In this document: positions 5,152 to 29,750 of the stretch, piece after piece
How the letters are laid out: each line of letters begins with the position of its first letter
Position numbering within the stretch: position 1 is the stretch's first letter
Source: Coriobacteriales bacterium
GTDB lineage: Bacteria; Actinomycetota; Coriobacteriia; Coriobacteriales; Atopobiaceae
Assembly (NCBI GenBank): GCA_029101205.1
Contig: JAQXQO010000023.1
Location: forward strand, 1 to 43,714
Reading direction: 5' to 3'
DNA: 43,714 nt
The notes under the pieces: model-generated
The model's database searches: none
Told to the model about the DNA's origin: nothing
The model's input: the letters and a program-made list of their open reading frames with translations, nothing else
Position numbers and translations under genes: made by a program

Positions 5152-5455
5152 AATGCCATATTGCGACCGATGCGGTTGGCCGGCGCCGCACCCGGCACGC
5201 GCCCTCCGAAGCCGTCGTCGCAGCCGGCGCCTCACCAGCCAGAACCAGCCGGCACCACAGCCGGCGCCCCACCAGCCAAAACCAGCCGGCACAGCAGCCG
5301 CCGAAGCCGTCGTCGCACCCCGAGCAACTGTGGCAATCTGGTCTGACCTAGCCTGGTCTTCTCATCTGTATGGGGTACGAACCGGCCTTGTATGGGGTAC
5401 GGACCGACATTGGTGGTCAGCTGGGTGTCTGGCACACAACTGTTACCCTACTCCT
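5152..5455. other. Repeat-rich spacer after serine dehydratase; possible decayed zinc-ribbon ORF
   Basis: Two bases after the dehydratase stop, an ATG at 5153 opens a frame starting MPYCDRCGWPAP, a zinc-ribbon-like CxxC start. It soon meets out-of-phase Pro/Ala-rich repeats, and no coherent protein follows. Direct repeats at 5206-5320 consist of CCGAAGCCGTCGTCG (twice, 95 bp apart) and a roughly 38-bp unit beginning AGCCGGCGCC (twice). Two copies of TATGGGGTACG occur near 5370-5400. It may be a broken zinc-ribbon protein with a Pro-rich linker, or simply repeat DNA. Confidence 0.35.
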
Positions 5456-5522
5456 ACTTCGTTCGGTACCTTTTTGGTCAGTCGGCCTCCTATCCGGCAA
5501 TCAAAAAGGTACCGAACGAAGT
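5456..5522. repeat. 67-bp intergenic hairpin element, copy 1
   Basis: Perfect 21-bp arms (ACTTCGTTCGGTACCTTTTT plus G, and its complement) flank a 25-base loop. Each arm contains the palindrome GGTACC. This copy is the clearest example of a family found eight times in the window. Confidence 0.9.
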
Positions 5523-5723
5523 TGGTCCAAGCGAACTCGCGTTCCGAAAGTGGCCTCCGGATATAGCCGAATACAGCAAAAGCATAGTTTTGCTTAATCT
5601 ATGTGCTTCGCCTATGAATGACAGGTGTCTACCCAGCCCCAACAGCATGTTGGCAATTCACTAAAGCCGGCCATTCCAGGCCCAGCCGTCCATTCCGTGC
5701 GCCTCGTACAAGTCGCGCATAAA

Positions 5724-7141: not shown

Positions 7142-7739
7142 TGTGCTCACACACCAATCCCATCAAGCGACCATGCGCCGCCGAGCAACGCTACGGTCAG
7201 GTACCACGCGGGCAAAACGCAACTCAAGGTAGGGCATGAAGCAAACACGGACACTAGGCCAGCACTAATGCCGATGCCACACAATTCAAAGCAAGGCGAA
7301 CTCGCCAAAGCCTGCTATCCGATGGCTGAATTATAGCGTACGTTTGTTCTTGCGTACAAGTGTTCCTCATTCTATTTTCGTTCCGAAAACCGTTGCAAAA
7401 GCCGCTTGCCTTCCCTCAGCTCGGCTGCCTAAAACGCCCAGGTCAGCGCCATCTCGGCCAGGTCAGCGCCATCCCAATCATGCATTGTTTACATTGCTTA
7501 TCGCTTACCATGTGCAAAAGCTATGAGGCATCCAGTTAGTTCACCTGAGCAGACTTCGTTCGGTGCGGTTTTGATCGTCCGGGGAAACGGTCAGCGACCA
7601 AAAAGGTACCGAACGAAGTGAGCATCGACTAACTCATGAGGCGACGCAGGCGTTTCCATGACAGCGTAAAATATGCTTCATACGTAACTTACAAGAAGCG
7701 CATTCGTAGCTGATGCACGGCACGCTCGCACACATTAAA
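7142..7739. other. 600-bp gene-poor spacer with one hairpin element
   Basis: No supported gene. It holds a 16-bp direct repeat, CCAGGTCAGCGCCATC, twice near 7439-7475, then hairpin element copy 2. The composition is more AT-rich than surrounding genes. Confidence 0.5.
7553..7619. repeat. 67-bp intergenic hairpin element, copy 2
   Basis: Arms ACTTCGTTCGG and CCGAACGAAGT are perfect. The inner part of the left arm reads TGCGGTTTTG instead of TACCTTTTTG, so the stem is imperfect in the middle. Total length equals copy 1. Confidence 0.85.
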
Positions 7740-10088: not shown

Positions 10089-11270
10089 TTAGTGGTGGAA
10101 CAGCCTCAGGCCGGTGAACGCCATGACCATGCCGTACTTGTCGGCGGTCTCGATCACGTTATCGTCGCGGATGGAGCCGCCGGGCTCGGCGATGTAGCTG
10201 ACGCCGGACTTGTGGGCGCGCTCGACGTTGTCGCCGAACGGGAAGAACGCGTCGGAGCCCAGGGCCACGCCGGTCTGGGTGGCGACCCAGGCCTTCTTTT
10301 CCTCGGCGGTCAGCACCTCGGGACGGACCTTGAACCACTTCTGCCACTCGCCGTCGCGCAGCACGTCGTCGTGCTCGTCGCTGATGTAGACGTCGATGGC
10401 GTTGTCGCGGTTGGCGCGGCGGATGCCGTCAACGAACTGCAGGCCCAGCACCTTGGGATGGTGGCGCAGGTACCAGATGTCGGCCTTGTTGCCCGCCAGG
10501 CGCGTGCAGTGGATACGACTCTGCTGGCCGGCGCCCACGCCAATGGTCTGGCCGCCCTTGGCGTAGCACACCGAGTTGGACTGCGTGTACTTCAGGGCGA
10601 TCAGCGACAGGACCAGGTCGACCTTTGCCTGCTGGGGCAGCTCCTTGTTCTGGGTCACGATGTTGGTCAGCAGGCTCTCGTCGATCTTGCTGAAGTTGTG
10701 GCCCTGCTCGAACGTGATGCCAAAGACGTCCTTGCACTCCTTCGGCGCGGGCGTGTAGTTGGGGTCAATCTGCACCACGTTATACTTGCCGCGCTTCTTT
10801 GAGCTGAGGATCTCCAGCGCCTCGGGCGTGTAGCCGGGGGCGATGATGCCGTCGGAGACCTCTGCCTTCAGGTAGCGGGCGGTGTCGGCGTCGCAGGTGT
10901 CGGACAGGGCGGCCCAGTCGCCGTACGAGGACAGGCGGTCGGCGCCGCGCGCGCGGATGTATGCGCAGGCGATGGGGCTGGGGTCGGGCTCGTCGTCCTT
11001 CACGAAGTAGATCTGGCGCTCCACCTGGGTCAGGGGCAGGCCCACAGCCGCACCGGCGGGGCTCACGTGCTTGAACGAGGCGGCGGCGGGCAGGCCGGTG
11101 GCCTCCTTAAGCTCCTTGACCAGCTGCCAGGAGTTCAGGGCATCGAGGAAGTTGATGTAGCCGGGCTTGCCGGACAGGACGGTCACGGGGAGGTCCGACC
11201 CGTCCTTCATAAAGATGCGCGCCGGCTTCTGGTTCGGGTTGCAGCCGTACTTGAGCTCGAGTTCGTTCAT
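10089..11270 (-). CDS. purH: Stand-alone AICAR transformylase (PurH formyltransferase domain only)
   Basis: The enzyme transfers a formyl group from 10-formyl-tetrahydrofolate to AICAR, giving FAICAR in the penultimate step of IMP synthesis. The 393 residues correspond to the transformylase half of bifunctional PurH; the N-terminal IMP cyclohydrolase domain (about 200 residues) is absent. The catalytic Lys-His pair is in AASFKHVSPAG. The C-terminal region has SDAFFPFGDN and EPGGSIRDD, the end of the transformylase domain. The missing cyclohydrolase is supplied by the PurO-type gene upstream in the same operon, 227 bases away. The start follows AAAGGA six bases upstream. The spacer holds a striking GC-rich inverted repeat. 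Control is likely by the ZTP riboswitch ahead of purO. Confidence 0.93.
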   Translation of the reverse strand: MNELELKYGCNPNQKPARIFMKDGSDLPVTVLSGKPGYINFLDALNSWQLVKELKEATGLPAAASFKHVSPAGAAVGLPLTQVERQIYFVKDDEPDPSPIACAYIRARGADRLSSYGDWAALSDTCDADTARYLKAEVSDGIIAPGYTPEALEILSSKKRGKYNVVQIDPNYTPAPKECKDVFGITFEQGHNFSKIDESLLTNIVTQNKELPQQAKVDLVLSLIALKYTQSNSVCYAKGGQTIGVGAGQQSRIHCTRLAGNKADIWYLRHHPKVLGLQFVDGIRRANRDNAIDVYISDEHDDVLRDGEWQKWFKVRPEVLTAEEKKAWVATQTGVALGSDAFFPFGDNVERAHKSGVSYIAEPGGSIRDDNVIETADKYGMVMAFTGLRLFHH

Positions 11271-11497: not shown

Positions 11498-12130
11498 TTA
11501 GTCGCCGAGGTTCTTGTTGAAGAGGGTAACTTGGCCGGCGACGTTGGCGTACATGGAGACCTTGTTGTCCTCGTCCAGGGCGGACCAGACGGTGGCGGGG
11601 TCGGGGACGCTGACGCGCAGGGGCTCTCCGGCAAAGCTGGGCAGCGGGTTGCCGTCGTGCTGATAGGTGCTGATGAAGTAGCCCTCGCCCTCGTCGACGC
11701 CCTCGTAGCAGAAGAACTCGCGCAGGCAGCGGCCGGACTGGTGCTTCAGGATAGAAATCTCGAAGCTGCCGTCGGGGTGGATGATCGAGCTGATGCGCGG
11801 CGTGAAGTTGGGGCCGTCGGGCTCGTACTCGCGCGCCATGCAGCCGTCTCGGAAGCTGCCGCGCTCCACGATGGTATCGGTCTGGTCGCCGTTGGTCACC
11901 ACGAGGTCGTCGCCCATGGTGCGCACGGGGTGATAGATGATCAGACTGGGATCTTCCATCTGGCTGGGGTCGTGCGCCTCGGTGCGGATGCCGTCGTCCG
12001 TCGCCACAAAGACGCGGTTGCGGCTGTTCGTGCTGCGCCCCATGATCCAGTAGTACACGCGGTCCTTGCCCACTACGATTCCGCGGCCAGGGTAAGAGTT
12101 ACCCCGCAGAACCTCGGCCAAATCCAGCAT
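11498..12130 (-). CDS. purO: IMP cyclohydrolase, PurO-type
   Basis: This 210-residue protein closes FAICAR to IMP, the last step of de novo purine synthesis. It matches the PurO/IMP_cyclohyd family, first known from archaea and unrelated to the PurH cyclohydrolase. Signatures are NSYPGRGIVVGKD, YYWIMGRSTNSRNRVF, FTPRISSIIHPDG and YQHDGNPLPSFAGEPL. The ATG at 12130 is chosen over one 24 codons upstream because AAGGGAG precedes it and the alignable family sequence begins there. It is first in a minus-strand operon with the transformylase and lies about 145 bases beyond a riboswitch-terminator. Confidence 0.92.
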   Translation of the reverse strand: MLDLAEVLRGNSYPGRGIVVGKDRVYYWIMGRSTNSRNRVFVATDDGIRTEAHDPSQMEDPSLIIYHPVRTMGDDLVVTNGDQTDTIVERGSFRDGCMAREYEPDGPNFTPRISSIIHPDGSFEISILKHQSGRCLREFFCYEGVDEGEGYFISTYQHDGNPLPSFAGEPLRVSVPDPATVWSALDEDNKVSMYANVAGQVTLFNKNLGD

Positions 12131-12274
12131 GCGAACTCCCTTCTGTTGGCTTCGCTCCAAATTCGGTCGCGCGTCGCAAACGGGCACTATGTCCGCGCTC
12201 ATGGCGCTCGACTCGTATGCCCACGCTCACGGCGCGCTGCCAGCCCCATCCCCAGAAGGTCGCCGCACAAAAAA

Positions 12275-12304
12275 GGCAAGCGACACCTGCGGGTGTGGCT
12301 TGCC
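12275..12304 (-). terminator. Intrinsic terminator forming the expression platform of the ZTP riboswitch
   Basis: In the RNA, GGCAAGC and ACACC pair with GGUGU and GCUUGCC (one G-G mismatch) around a 4-base loop and are followed by UUUUUUG. The 5' side of the stem overlaps the conserved GGGCA end of the aptamer, so ligand binding should compete with terminator formation. No minus-strand gene lies immediately upstream for it to serve. Confidence 0.85.
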
Positions 12305-12372
12305 CAGACGGTCGGCGTGTGATGTAGTGCGCCGCTCCCCCGTGGTAGCCCACGATTCTCCGTCAGTCACAG
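12300..12372 (-). promoter_or_regulatory. ZTP riboswitch (pfl motif) controlling purO-purH
   Basis: Read on the minus strand, the leader has the two conserved blocks of the pfl/ZTP aptamer: GGGGAGCG (12340-12333) and CCGUCUGGGCA (12311-12301). The first helix pairs GACGG (12364-12360) with CCGUC (12311-12307), a covarying version of the usual GGCG/CGCC. A second hairpin, CGUGG-GCUA-CCACG, is at 12354-12341, and a GGCG/CGCC stem links the two halves. Known ZTP riboswitches sense ZMP/ZTP, derivatives of AICAR that rise when 10-formyl-tetrahydrofolate is short, and commonly precede purH, folD or glyA. Binding should block the overlapping terminator and turn the operon on. Confidence 0.9.
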
Positions 12373-12389
12373 CGCAGTGTTCGGGTATC

Positions 12390-12420
12390 AGCATAGCGCA
12401 CGTGGCGGCGCGGCGCGCAA
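12390..12420 (-). promoter_or_regulatory. Candidate promoter of the purO-purH leader
   Basis: TATGCT (12395-12390) is a good -10 box about 20 bases before the aptamer. TTGCGC (12420-12415) is a possible -35, but the 19-base spacing is long. Confidence 0.4.
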
Positions 12421-12469
12421 GCCATCGCCCCAAGCCCATCCAGATTCGACAAACTGATTGGTAAGATGG

Positions 12470-12512
12470 CCTTGGCTTGGCGCGGTCTCCTTGGCGCGGT
12501 CTCCTTGGCGTG
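12470..12512. repeat. Tandem repeat of TTGGCGCGGTCTCC
   Basis: Two and a half copies of a 14-bp unit, followed by diverged TTGGCG-containing sequence to about 12565. It lies upstream of the GNAT gene and appears non-coding. Confidence 0.6.
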
Positions 12513-12760
12513 AGAATTCGGTCGCCGCCTTGGCGCACGGAGATTCGGCCACCGCCTTGACCCGACGCCTCGCGCCGGCGCCGCGACATGCGCGCTCTTC
12601 TTGCCCGTACTACCCGCGCGCTTCTCTTGCCCGCATGGCCTTCTTGAGCTGGGCGGCAATCGAACCTATGATTGTTCGTTACGTCGAGCGAATCGTCTCC
12701 CGCCGCCGCCAGGCCAAGTGGCAGGCGCAGACGGCTCGCACAGAGGAGGGCAAGAAGAAC

Positions 12761-13240
12761 ATGCAGATCCGTCGCGCAACCCCTACCGACATCCCCGGCC
12801 TCAACCGCTGTCTCTCGCAGGTGCTGGAGGTCCATGCACAGGGCAGGCCCGACCTGTTCCGCTCGGGCACCCGCAAGTACACCGACGACGAGCTGCGGCA
12901 GATCGTCGCCGACGACGCGCGTCCCGTGTTCGTGGCGGTAGACCCCGACGCCAAGCCCGGTGACATCCTGGGCTACGGCTTTTGCGTGGTGCAGGACTTC
13001 ACCGGCTCGAACAACATGCAGCCCATAAAGACGCTGTACATCGATGACATCTGCGTCGATGTCGCAGCGCGCCGCAGGGGCATTGCCACTGCCATCTACC
13101 AGCACATCATTGAGTTCGCTCGCGAGGGCAGCTTCCACAACGTGACGCTGAACGTGTGGGAGTGCAACCCCGGAGCCCGCGCCTTCTACGAGAAGATGGG
13201 CATGGGCGTACAGAAGACCTGCATGGAGCAGGTACTGTAG
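12761..13240 (+). CDS. GNAT family N-acetyltransferase
   Basis: The 159-residue protein begins MQIRRATPTDIPGLNR, the usual GNAT first strand and helix. It has the strand TLYIDDICVDVAARRRGIA, which contains the acetyl-CoA pyrophosphate loop (R/Q-x-x-G-x-G/A, here RRRGIA), and ends with NVWECNPGARAFYEKMGM, the conserved motif B. GNAT enzymes move acetyl from acetyl-CoA to an amine; the acceptor is unknown. GAGGAGGG lies about ten bases before the ATG. The downstream membrane-protein gene starts 16 bases after the stop and is likely co-transcribed. Confidence 0.88.
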   Translation: MQIRRATPTDIPGLNRCLSQVLEVHAQGRPDLFRSGTRKYTDDELRQIVADDARPVFVAVDPDAKPGDILGYGFCVVQDFTGSNNMQPIKTLYIDDICVDVAARRRGIATAIYQHIIEFAREGSFHNVTLNVWECNPGARAFYEKMGMGVQKTCMEQVL

Positions 13241-14739: not shown

Positions 14740-15068
14740 GGCAGCTCCTCTCGACGAAACCGCAGTCATTACCGGCATTAATCGTACGACAACGTTGGCA
14801 CGGGCTGCACGCGAAGCCGGCAACTCGCCACGCCTTAATCCTCCAGTCCGACGCACGCTCGACGGGCGCACCCGACAACAAGCGCGCTGCTGGCATCGCC
14901 CCCCACCCCAATATCGCGCCGGGCGGCAAACGCGCCGCAGGCAAACGCGCCGCAAATCCGAGACGGCACCCTGGCCAACAGATGGCATTTTTCGTAAGCT
15001 TTTCTTGCTTCATAAGAAACGTATACGTAATTCAGCCTCAGCTGGGGCGAAAATGTTAGCCATGTCTC
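14740..15068. other. Gene-poor spacer upstream of the nitroreductase
   Basis: No gene supported. A short tandem repeat, GGCAAACGCGCCGCA, occurs twice near 14930-14960. The rest is unremarkable and leads into hairpin element copy 3. Confidence 0.45.
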
Positions 15069-15135
15069 ACATCCCTCGGTACCATTTTGGTCGCCCGCCA
15101 ATCCCGCTGCCAACCAAAAAGGTACCGAGCAAAGT
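15069..15135. repeat. 67-bp intergenic hairpin element, copy 3
   Basis: The arms CTCGGTACCATTTTGGT and ACCAAAAAGGTACCGAG pair with one mismatch. The outer left arm has decayed (ACATCCCTCGG in place of ACTTTGCTCGG). Confidence 0.8.
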
Positions 15136-15195
15136 TAGCCTCACTCAACTGCTATGGCGTCGCTTCGGCGCCGCCATAGATATACTATCGGTTTG

Positions 15196-17990: not shown

Positions 17991-18434
17991 GGCACCTCCA
18001 TTACCCGCGTCAAGCAGACGGCCTCCATTGGCCAGCCGCGCGTCTGCCGCAGCAGCCCCGACCCGGCCCAGGCCCAACCCCGCCGCGCCAGCCTTCGCGA
18101 CAGCTTCGACGACCAGCGAACTCCGTCCCATTGTCCAACAAATGACGACCCCTGCGTCCAGATATGCGCTGTCCGCTCTCAATTGCGCCACTTGTTCCGA
18201 TTGGCTCCTTCGCATCGGCGCCTCCTTGCGCCCGTTGTCCTCTTCGATCCGCCGCCCCCCTCGCTCCCCGTTGCCTCCTTGTGCCCGTTGCCCTTCCCCA
18301 CCCAAGTGCCCTTCTTGCCCTCAGCGGACAGCCCCCGCCAGCAACGTCAGCCGCAAACACCCCGGCGGTAACCCTCCCGACCAGCAAGCCTCCACCGACC
18401 AGCGAGCCCCCCACCGACCAGTAAGCCCCCACCG

Positions 18435-18501
18435 ACATCGAGCGGTACCTTTTTGATTGCCGACACCAACCCGATGCAATCAAATCCGCACCGCTCGAAG
18501 T
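18435..18501. repeat. 67-bp intergenic hairpin element, copy 4
   Basis: A variant whose arms read TCGAGCGGTACC...GATTGC and GCAATC...CACCGCTCGA. The TTC-GG core of other copies is replaced by GAGCGG on both arms, keeping the pairing. Confidence 0.8.
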
Positions 18502-18654
18502 AAGGAGTAGCTAACTAAATCAGCTGAAATCCCATCACAACTGGTCAAATTCGGCACCTCGGTAGTACTTTCCAGATAAGATATGTCATATATGATGATT
18601 GTCGCGATATGCCATCTATTGCTGTGAAACCATCCCGACAGTTCGCCTAGTCAT

Positions 18655-18721
18655 ACTTTGCTCGGTACCTTTTTGGTCGCCCCTGGGTGGACCCGGTGAA
18701 CAAAAAGGTACCGAGCGAAGT
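18655..18721. repeat. 67-bp intergenic hairpin element, copy 5
   Basis: Left arm ACTTTGCTCGGTACCTTTTT pairs with CAAAAAGGTACCGAGCGAAG; one T-G wobble. Outside the arms, ACAGTTCGCCT on the left also pairs imperfectly with AGGCTGACTGT on the right, extending the palindrome. Confidence 0.88.
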
Positions 18722-18770
18722 TGCCCCAGGCTGACTGTATAGCCACGGTCTGTGCCTTACACCATGCTAT

Positions 18771-29515: not shown

Positions 29516-29582
29516 ACTTTGCTCGGTACCTTTTTGGTCACGGCTCAGCAAGACGAGCAATCGAAAACGTACCGAACAAAGT
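29516..29582. repeat. 67-bp intergenic hairpin element, copy 7
   Basis: Left ACTTTGCTCGGTACCTTTTT, right GAAAACGTACCGAACAAAGT. Outside the arms the left AGTTCGCC and right GGCGAACT are also complementary, extending the palindrome to about 105 bp. Confidence 0.87.
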
Positions 29583-29619
29583 TACCAGTGGCGAACTACA
29601 TCGCCACCCCCTCATGCAT

Positions 29620-29636
29620 ATACCCCTATCGGGTAT
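29620..29636. repeat. ATACCCC palindrome following hairpin element 7
   Basis: ATACCCCTATCGGGTAT lies 38 bases after the right arm. It resembles CsoR-type operators, but no copper gene is nearby. Confidence 0.6.
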
Positions 29637-29683
29637 CTGACGATATCAGCACCCCTCGGCGCGTATAGCGTTAGCTCAGTCTC

Positions 29684-29750
29684 ACTTTGTTCGGTACCTT
29701 TTTACTCGCTCGCCGAGAGACCGGGCGACCGAAAACGTACCGAGCAAAGT
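29684..29750. repeat. 67-bp intergenic hairpin element, copy 8
   Basis: Left ACTTTGTTCGGTACCTTTTT, right GAAAACGTACCGAGCAAAGT; the inner arms end ACTCG/CGACC. It starts 102 bases after copy 7 ends. Confidence 0.87.

Follow-up and report, generated by a model that had tools for sequence, protein, structure and literature searches.

A ZMP/ZTP riboswitch with an overlapping intrinsic terminator in the leader of a split purO-purH operon from a Coriobacteriales bacterium

The enzymes encoded by purO and purH convert ZMP (AICAR) to IMP, and ZMP is the substrate of AICAR transformylase. As a preliminary description of the DNA analyzed here (a stretch of 43,714 nucleotides from a Coriobacteriales bacterium, hereafter referred to as the window) had placed a ZTP riboswitch in the leader of a purO-purH operon, this locus raises the question of whether the element is genuine, how it could act on the two genes downstream, and whether it accompanies the same genes in related organisms. 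The check proposed in that description, i.e., a search of the minus strand with the Rfam covariance model RF01750 (ZMP-ZTP), was performed and yielded a match over the full model (positions 1-86) with 59.3 bits (gathering score 39; E = 3e-7 in the window); the match ends at 12295, close to the predicted end at approx. 12301. This was the single match over a curated threshold in an Rfam scan of the whole window, and it was also unique in the draft genome from which the window derives (2.1 Mb in 174 contigs, 83.8% complete; E = 3.4e-9). The preliminary description was thus correct in substance, but the range that it proposed for the element (12275-12420) was somewhat too wide on the upstream side and cut the U-tract of the terminator. 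Overall, we assign a probability of about 95% to the interpretation that the leader contains a genuine ZMP/ZTP riboswitch, which represents a transcriptional ON switch for the purO-purH operon; ligand binding and ON polarity are attributed to it by analogy with other ZTP riboswitches. The features identified are listed in Table 1.

Table 1. Features of the purO-purH locus, in window coordinates; paired strands are given in 5' to 3' order of the RNA
Feature	Coordinates	Strand	Basis or remarks
-10-like element TATGCT	12390..12395	-	10 nt 5' of aptamer; putative operon promoter
ZMP/ZTP riboswitch aptamer (RF01750)	12295..12380	-	Rfam covariance model
Aptamer P1	12378-12369 with 12335-12326	-	RF01750 alignment
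Aptamer pseudoknot (J1/2-L3), GACGG with CCGUC	12364-12360 with 12311-12307 (12307..12364)	-	RF01750 alignment and covariation
Aptamer helix P3, GCC with GGC	12316-12314 with 12304-12302 (12302..12316)	-	RF01750 alignment
Intrinsic terminator	12269..12305	-	Fold and shuffles
Terminator arms, GGGCAAGC with GCUUGCCU	12305-12298 with 12281-12274	-	Fold
Terminator inner helix, ACACC/GGUGU	12296-12292/12287-12283	-	Fold
Terminator U6 tract	12274-12269	-	Sequence
Likely purO ribosome-binding site, GAAGGGAG	12136..12143	-	Sequence; aligned starts of relatives have AAGGAG-like sites
purO, PurO-type IMP cyclohydrolase	11498..12130	-	210 aa from preferred start; PF07826
Perfect 23-bp inverted repeat with 38-nt loop	11289..11372	-	In purO-purH gap, ends 18 nt before purH; separate from riboswitch
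purH, stand-alone AICAR transformylase	10089..11270	-	393 aa; cyclohydrolase domain absent

The preliminary description had also interpreted GACGG and CCGUC as a covarying first helix. While the covariation was confirmed, the RF01750 alignment assigns these two strands to the pseudoknot and places P1 elsewhere. Among 61 scored leaders located 5' of purO, 52 carried GACGG/CCGUC and 9 carried GGCGG/CCGCC, while no leader showed a broken combination, although these tallies count sequences rather than independent events; for the single leader missed by the search pattern (L062), GGCGA/UCGCC was read from its sequence. As the pseudoknot state is identical in all 39 Coriobacteriia leaders, the support for covariation comes from the contrast within Clostridia.

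A terminator whose 5' arm overlaps the end of the aptamer, as had been claimed from the sequence, was also found. The fold has a free energy of -20.9 kcal/mol (z = -5.1), and none of 200 shuffled sequences was equally stable. The last stem strand of the aptamer is the GGGC of P3, and the three nucleotides that form the 3' strand of P3 (GGC, 12304-12302) are contained in the 5' arm of the terminator; aptamer and terminator are thus mutually exclusive in that strand. Overlap between a terminator and the 3' end of the aptamer is the usual design of an ON switch and is common, but not universal, among ZTP riboswitches.

This overlap is maintained among relatives. When a stem was anchored at the GGGC in each of the 39 Coriobacteriia leaders, pairing with the leader's own downstream strand had a mean length of 8.9 bp, as compared to 7.7 bp when downstream strands were swapped between loci and 4.9 bp for shuffled sequences. 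No swap among 500 reached the observed mean, a count that does not represent a probability as the leaders are kin. A strict test, requiring both the fold and a U-tract, was passed by 31 of the 39 leaders, including that of the window. Given that the other 8 failed, some relatives may terminate transcription only weakly or in a different way.

Previous studies reported that ZMP rises in folate stress (PMC7484762) and that, in the ZTP riboswitches studied, the ligand stabilizes the aptamer and blocks the terminator, so that transcription continues (PMC10085676, PMC7484762). By analogy, a shortage of 10-formyl-tetrahydrofolate would stall AICAR transformylase and cause ZMP to accumulate, and binding of ZMP or ZTP to the aptamer would hold the P3/pseudoknot region together. 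The downstream arm of the terminator would then be unable to capture the upstream arm, and transcription would read through into purO and purH, leading to synthesis of the two enzymes that convert ZMP to IMP. Without ligand, the downstream strand would be expected to displace P3, allowing the terminator to form and transcription to stop near 12269.

An extended -10 element (TGNTANNNT) was found within 40 nt 5' of the aptamer in 32 of the 39 Coriobacteriia leaders (the window being among the 39), as compared to 0.6 expected from single-base shuffles; in the window itself, the TATGCT hexamer is present without the TGN extension. A scan with consensus sequences showed no -35 box 5' of the aptamer, which could indicate that the usual transcription start is located below the riboswitch and that the leader is seldom used. 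We consider this very unlikely, however, given the -10-like box in the window, the frequency of extended -10 elements among related leaders, and the finding that the same type of scan showed no promoter match on the minus strand of 11900-12900. Transcription thus probably starts just upstream of 12380.

It is similarly improbable that a real ZTP aptamer here governs another process, e.g. translation, or gives rise to a stable small RNA that extends to the terminator. While the aptamer is complete and termination would release a discrete transcript of approx. 110 nt, the ribosome-binding site of purO lies more than 120 nt past the U-tract, where it is not included in any predicted structure, and the overlap with the terminator is kept in most Coriobacteriia relatives. 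Even less plausible is a decayed, non-functional relic of a ZTP riboswitch, as a non-standard pair of P1 in the model alignment and the presence of only three standard pairs in P3 are outweighed by a score far over the cut-off, an intact core, a compensated pseudoknot, a terminator with six U's, and a position conserved over many genera.

The transcriptional ON switch favored here shares P1, P2, the pseudoknot and P3, as well as the terminator-overlap platform and the kind of target gene, with known ZMP/ZTP riboswitches (pfl RNA), such as those from Clostridium beijerinckii pfl and Fusobacterium ulcerans. Both downstream genes function in purine or one-carbon metabolism, as is characteristic of ZTP riboswitch targets. 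Weinberg et al. (2010) reported purH among the commonest genes of pfl RNA and proposed the same ON polarity from terminator overlap (PMC2864571). The riboswitch in the window is a good but ordinary example of its kind, as its arrangement is shared by many relatives and purH was already a known target (PMC2864571); a literature search that combined ZTP riboswitches with Eggerthella yielded no reports.

The reach of the terminator differs among groups. In Coriobacteriia, its 5' arm mostly starts at the GGGC, such that it reaches P3 and spares the pseudoknot; the same form was found in three Clostridia that are near Coriobacteriia in the PurO tree (L049, L051 and L053). In many Lachnospiraceae purO leaders, on the other hand, the terminator pairs the whole of ACCGCCUGGGC, including the pseudoknot strand. 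For the C. beijerinckii pfl switch, it was reported that strand invasion nucleates on P3 and proceeds through the pseudoknot by branch migration (PMC10085676), whereas the terminator arm in the window takes only P3. The P3-only form may behave differently from the form that invades the pseudoknot, and P3-only terminators represent a naturally occurring counterpart with which strand-displacement models of the ZTP riboswitch could be compared.

The identities of the two genes were assigned by homology, and agree with the earlier assignment to a PurO-type cyclohydrolase and a stand-alone transformylase. The purO product matched PF07826 (IMP cyclohydrolase) with 160.2 bits (cut-off 28.1) and the solved archaeal PurO structure 2ntk (E = 4e-6), placing it in the same family as archaeal PurO, but its score of 44.5 bits against the archaeal equivalog TIGR01922 was under the cut-off of 158.35. 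Judged by these scores, the protein belongs to a bacterial branch of PurO rather than to the archaeal equivalog. Moreover, it is partnered with a transformylase of the folate-dependent type and not, as in Archaea, with PurP. A purO start at 12202, which represents the limit of the open frame, was rejected in favor of 12130, which is supported by the ribosome-binding site and by its agreement with the region where the protein starts in almost all relatives. Bacterial PurO was previously reported as rare (22 of 1266 bacteria; PMC6797443) or described as absent (PMC4177761). Here, PF07826 matches were present in 48 of the 248 Coriobacteriia genomes analyzed, and PurO was also found in many gut Clostridia, indicating that bacterial PurO, although near-confined to Archaea according to older surveys, is common in these two groups.

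The purH product matched NF005492 (stand-alone AICAR formyltransferase) with 708.2 bits (cut-off 415) over residues 1-393 and aligned from end to end with the C-terminal portion of human PURH (1p4r; 491 bits). Compared to bifunctional PurH/ATIC, it thus corresponds along its entire length to the AICAR transformylase part and lacks the IMP cyclohydrolase domain. Among the structures listed, it was far nearer to vertebrate PURH (491 bits) than to bacterial PurH (approx. 100 bits). In the incomplete draft genome, searches with PF01808 and with the MGS domain revealed one match each, the latter in a 1,081-aa frame that we read as CarB (carbamoyl-phosphate synthase), and no fused PurH was seen. As the gap between purO and purH is approx. 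227 nt and holds a very stable hairpin, co-transcription of the two genes is no more than plausible.

A survey of the 248 Coriobacteriia genomes identified RF01750 matches in 44. In 43 of the 48 genomes with PurO, the aptamer was located on the same strand, 78-201 nt 5' of the PurO domain match, and purO was followed by purH in all 30 ZTP loci fetched. No aptamer was found, even at E = 1, in the stretches fetched for the PurO genomes G136, G163, G228, G232 and G234. Apart from one exact duplicate (G126), no trusted RF01750 match occurred away from PurO in the 248 genomes. A fused PurH over the family cut-off was found in none of the 48 PurO genomes. The best TIGR00355 matches in all 48 had E-values between 2e-88 and 3e-69, i.e., at the level of the stand-alone enzyme, while 179 genomes of the 248-genome sample had TIGR00355 matches above the family cut-off; these results indicate that the occurrence of the riboswitch in this class follows that of the split pathway. 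The ZTP riboswitch in Coriobacteriia thus accompanies only the pathway composed of PurO and a stand-alone transformylase, and not fused PurH, which suggests that the leader and the genes have been kept as one unit, and have perhaps moved as one.

Two further matches were examined and rejected as additional targets. A match with 34 bits in G134 was under the cut-off and located within a recA-like reading frame. The second match in G126 lies within a 232-nt direct repeat with identical copies (L113, 2635-2866 and 7098-7329), which contains the entire ZTP aptamer and flanks a stretch of 4.2 kb. As judged by eye, the DNA between the two copies may encode an ArsR-type regulator, a methyltransferase, a ThiF-like protein and a transporter.

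In named genomes, the aptamer was found with 37 of the best 80 PurO relatives, and these aptamer-bearing relatives include members of the Eggerthellaceae, Atopobiaceae, Oscillospiraceae and Lachnospiraceae. A PurO tree grouped Coriobacteriia with a set of Oscillospiraceae (100/99 support), apart from Lachnospiraceae. This grouping fits horizontal transfer between phyla, for which we claim no direction (midpoint root, bootstrap unsettled). Eight clostridial loci (L037, L044, L046, L047, L048, L050, L052 and L055) carry purO-purH pairs close to those of Coriobacteriia; an aptamer was not detected in the upstream DNA fetched for these loci.

The hairpin between purO and purH shows a pattern of its own. 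Its tip, GAGTTCCGC...GAGGACTG (also given as GAGTTCCGC...GAGGACTGTYTGAG), was found again between purO and purH in several other genera, where the arms have quite different sequences that are each self-complementary; the hairpin was seen in L012, L016, L020, L022, L026, L030, L045 and L139-L153. The tip is also dispersed in G212 (12 copies, as compared to 0 for a reversed control pattern) and occurs elsewhere in some other genomes. The hairpin had no match in the Rfam scan of the window, and a plasmid search yielded no matches either. As there is no U-tract on the purH strand, it is unlike an intrinsic terminator in the direction of purH. It is conceivable, though rather doubtful, that the operon is under the control of two RNA elements, i.e., a P3-only subtype of the ZTP riboswitch, in which the terminator strand never invades the pseudoknot, and this hairpin with its conserved tip, which would set the level of purH relative to purO. 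Palindromes of a second family, whose arms resemble ACTTCGTTCGGTACCTTTTTG, are present in at least 6 copies in the window (5453-5525, 7553-7619, 15066-15138, 18420-18516, 18638-18738 and 29554-29712).
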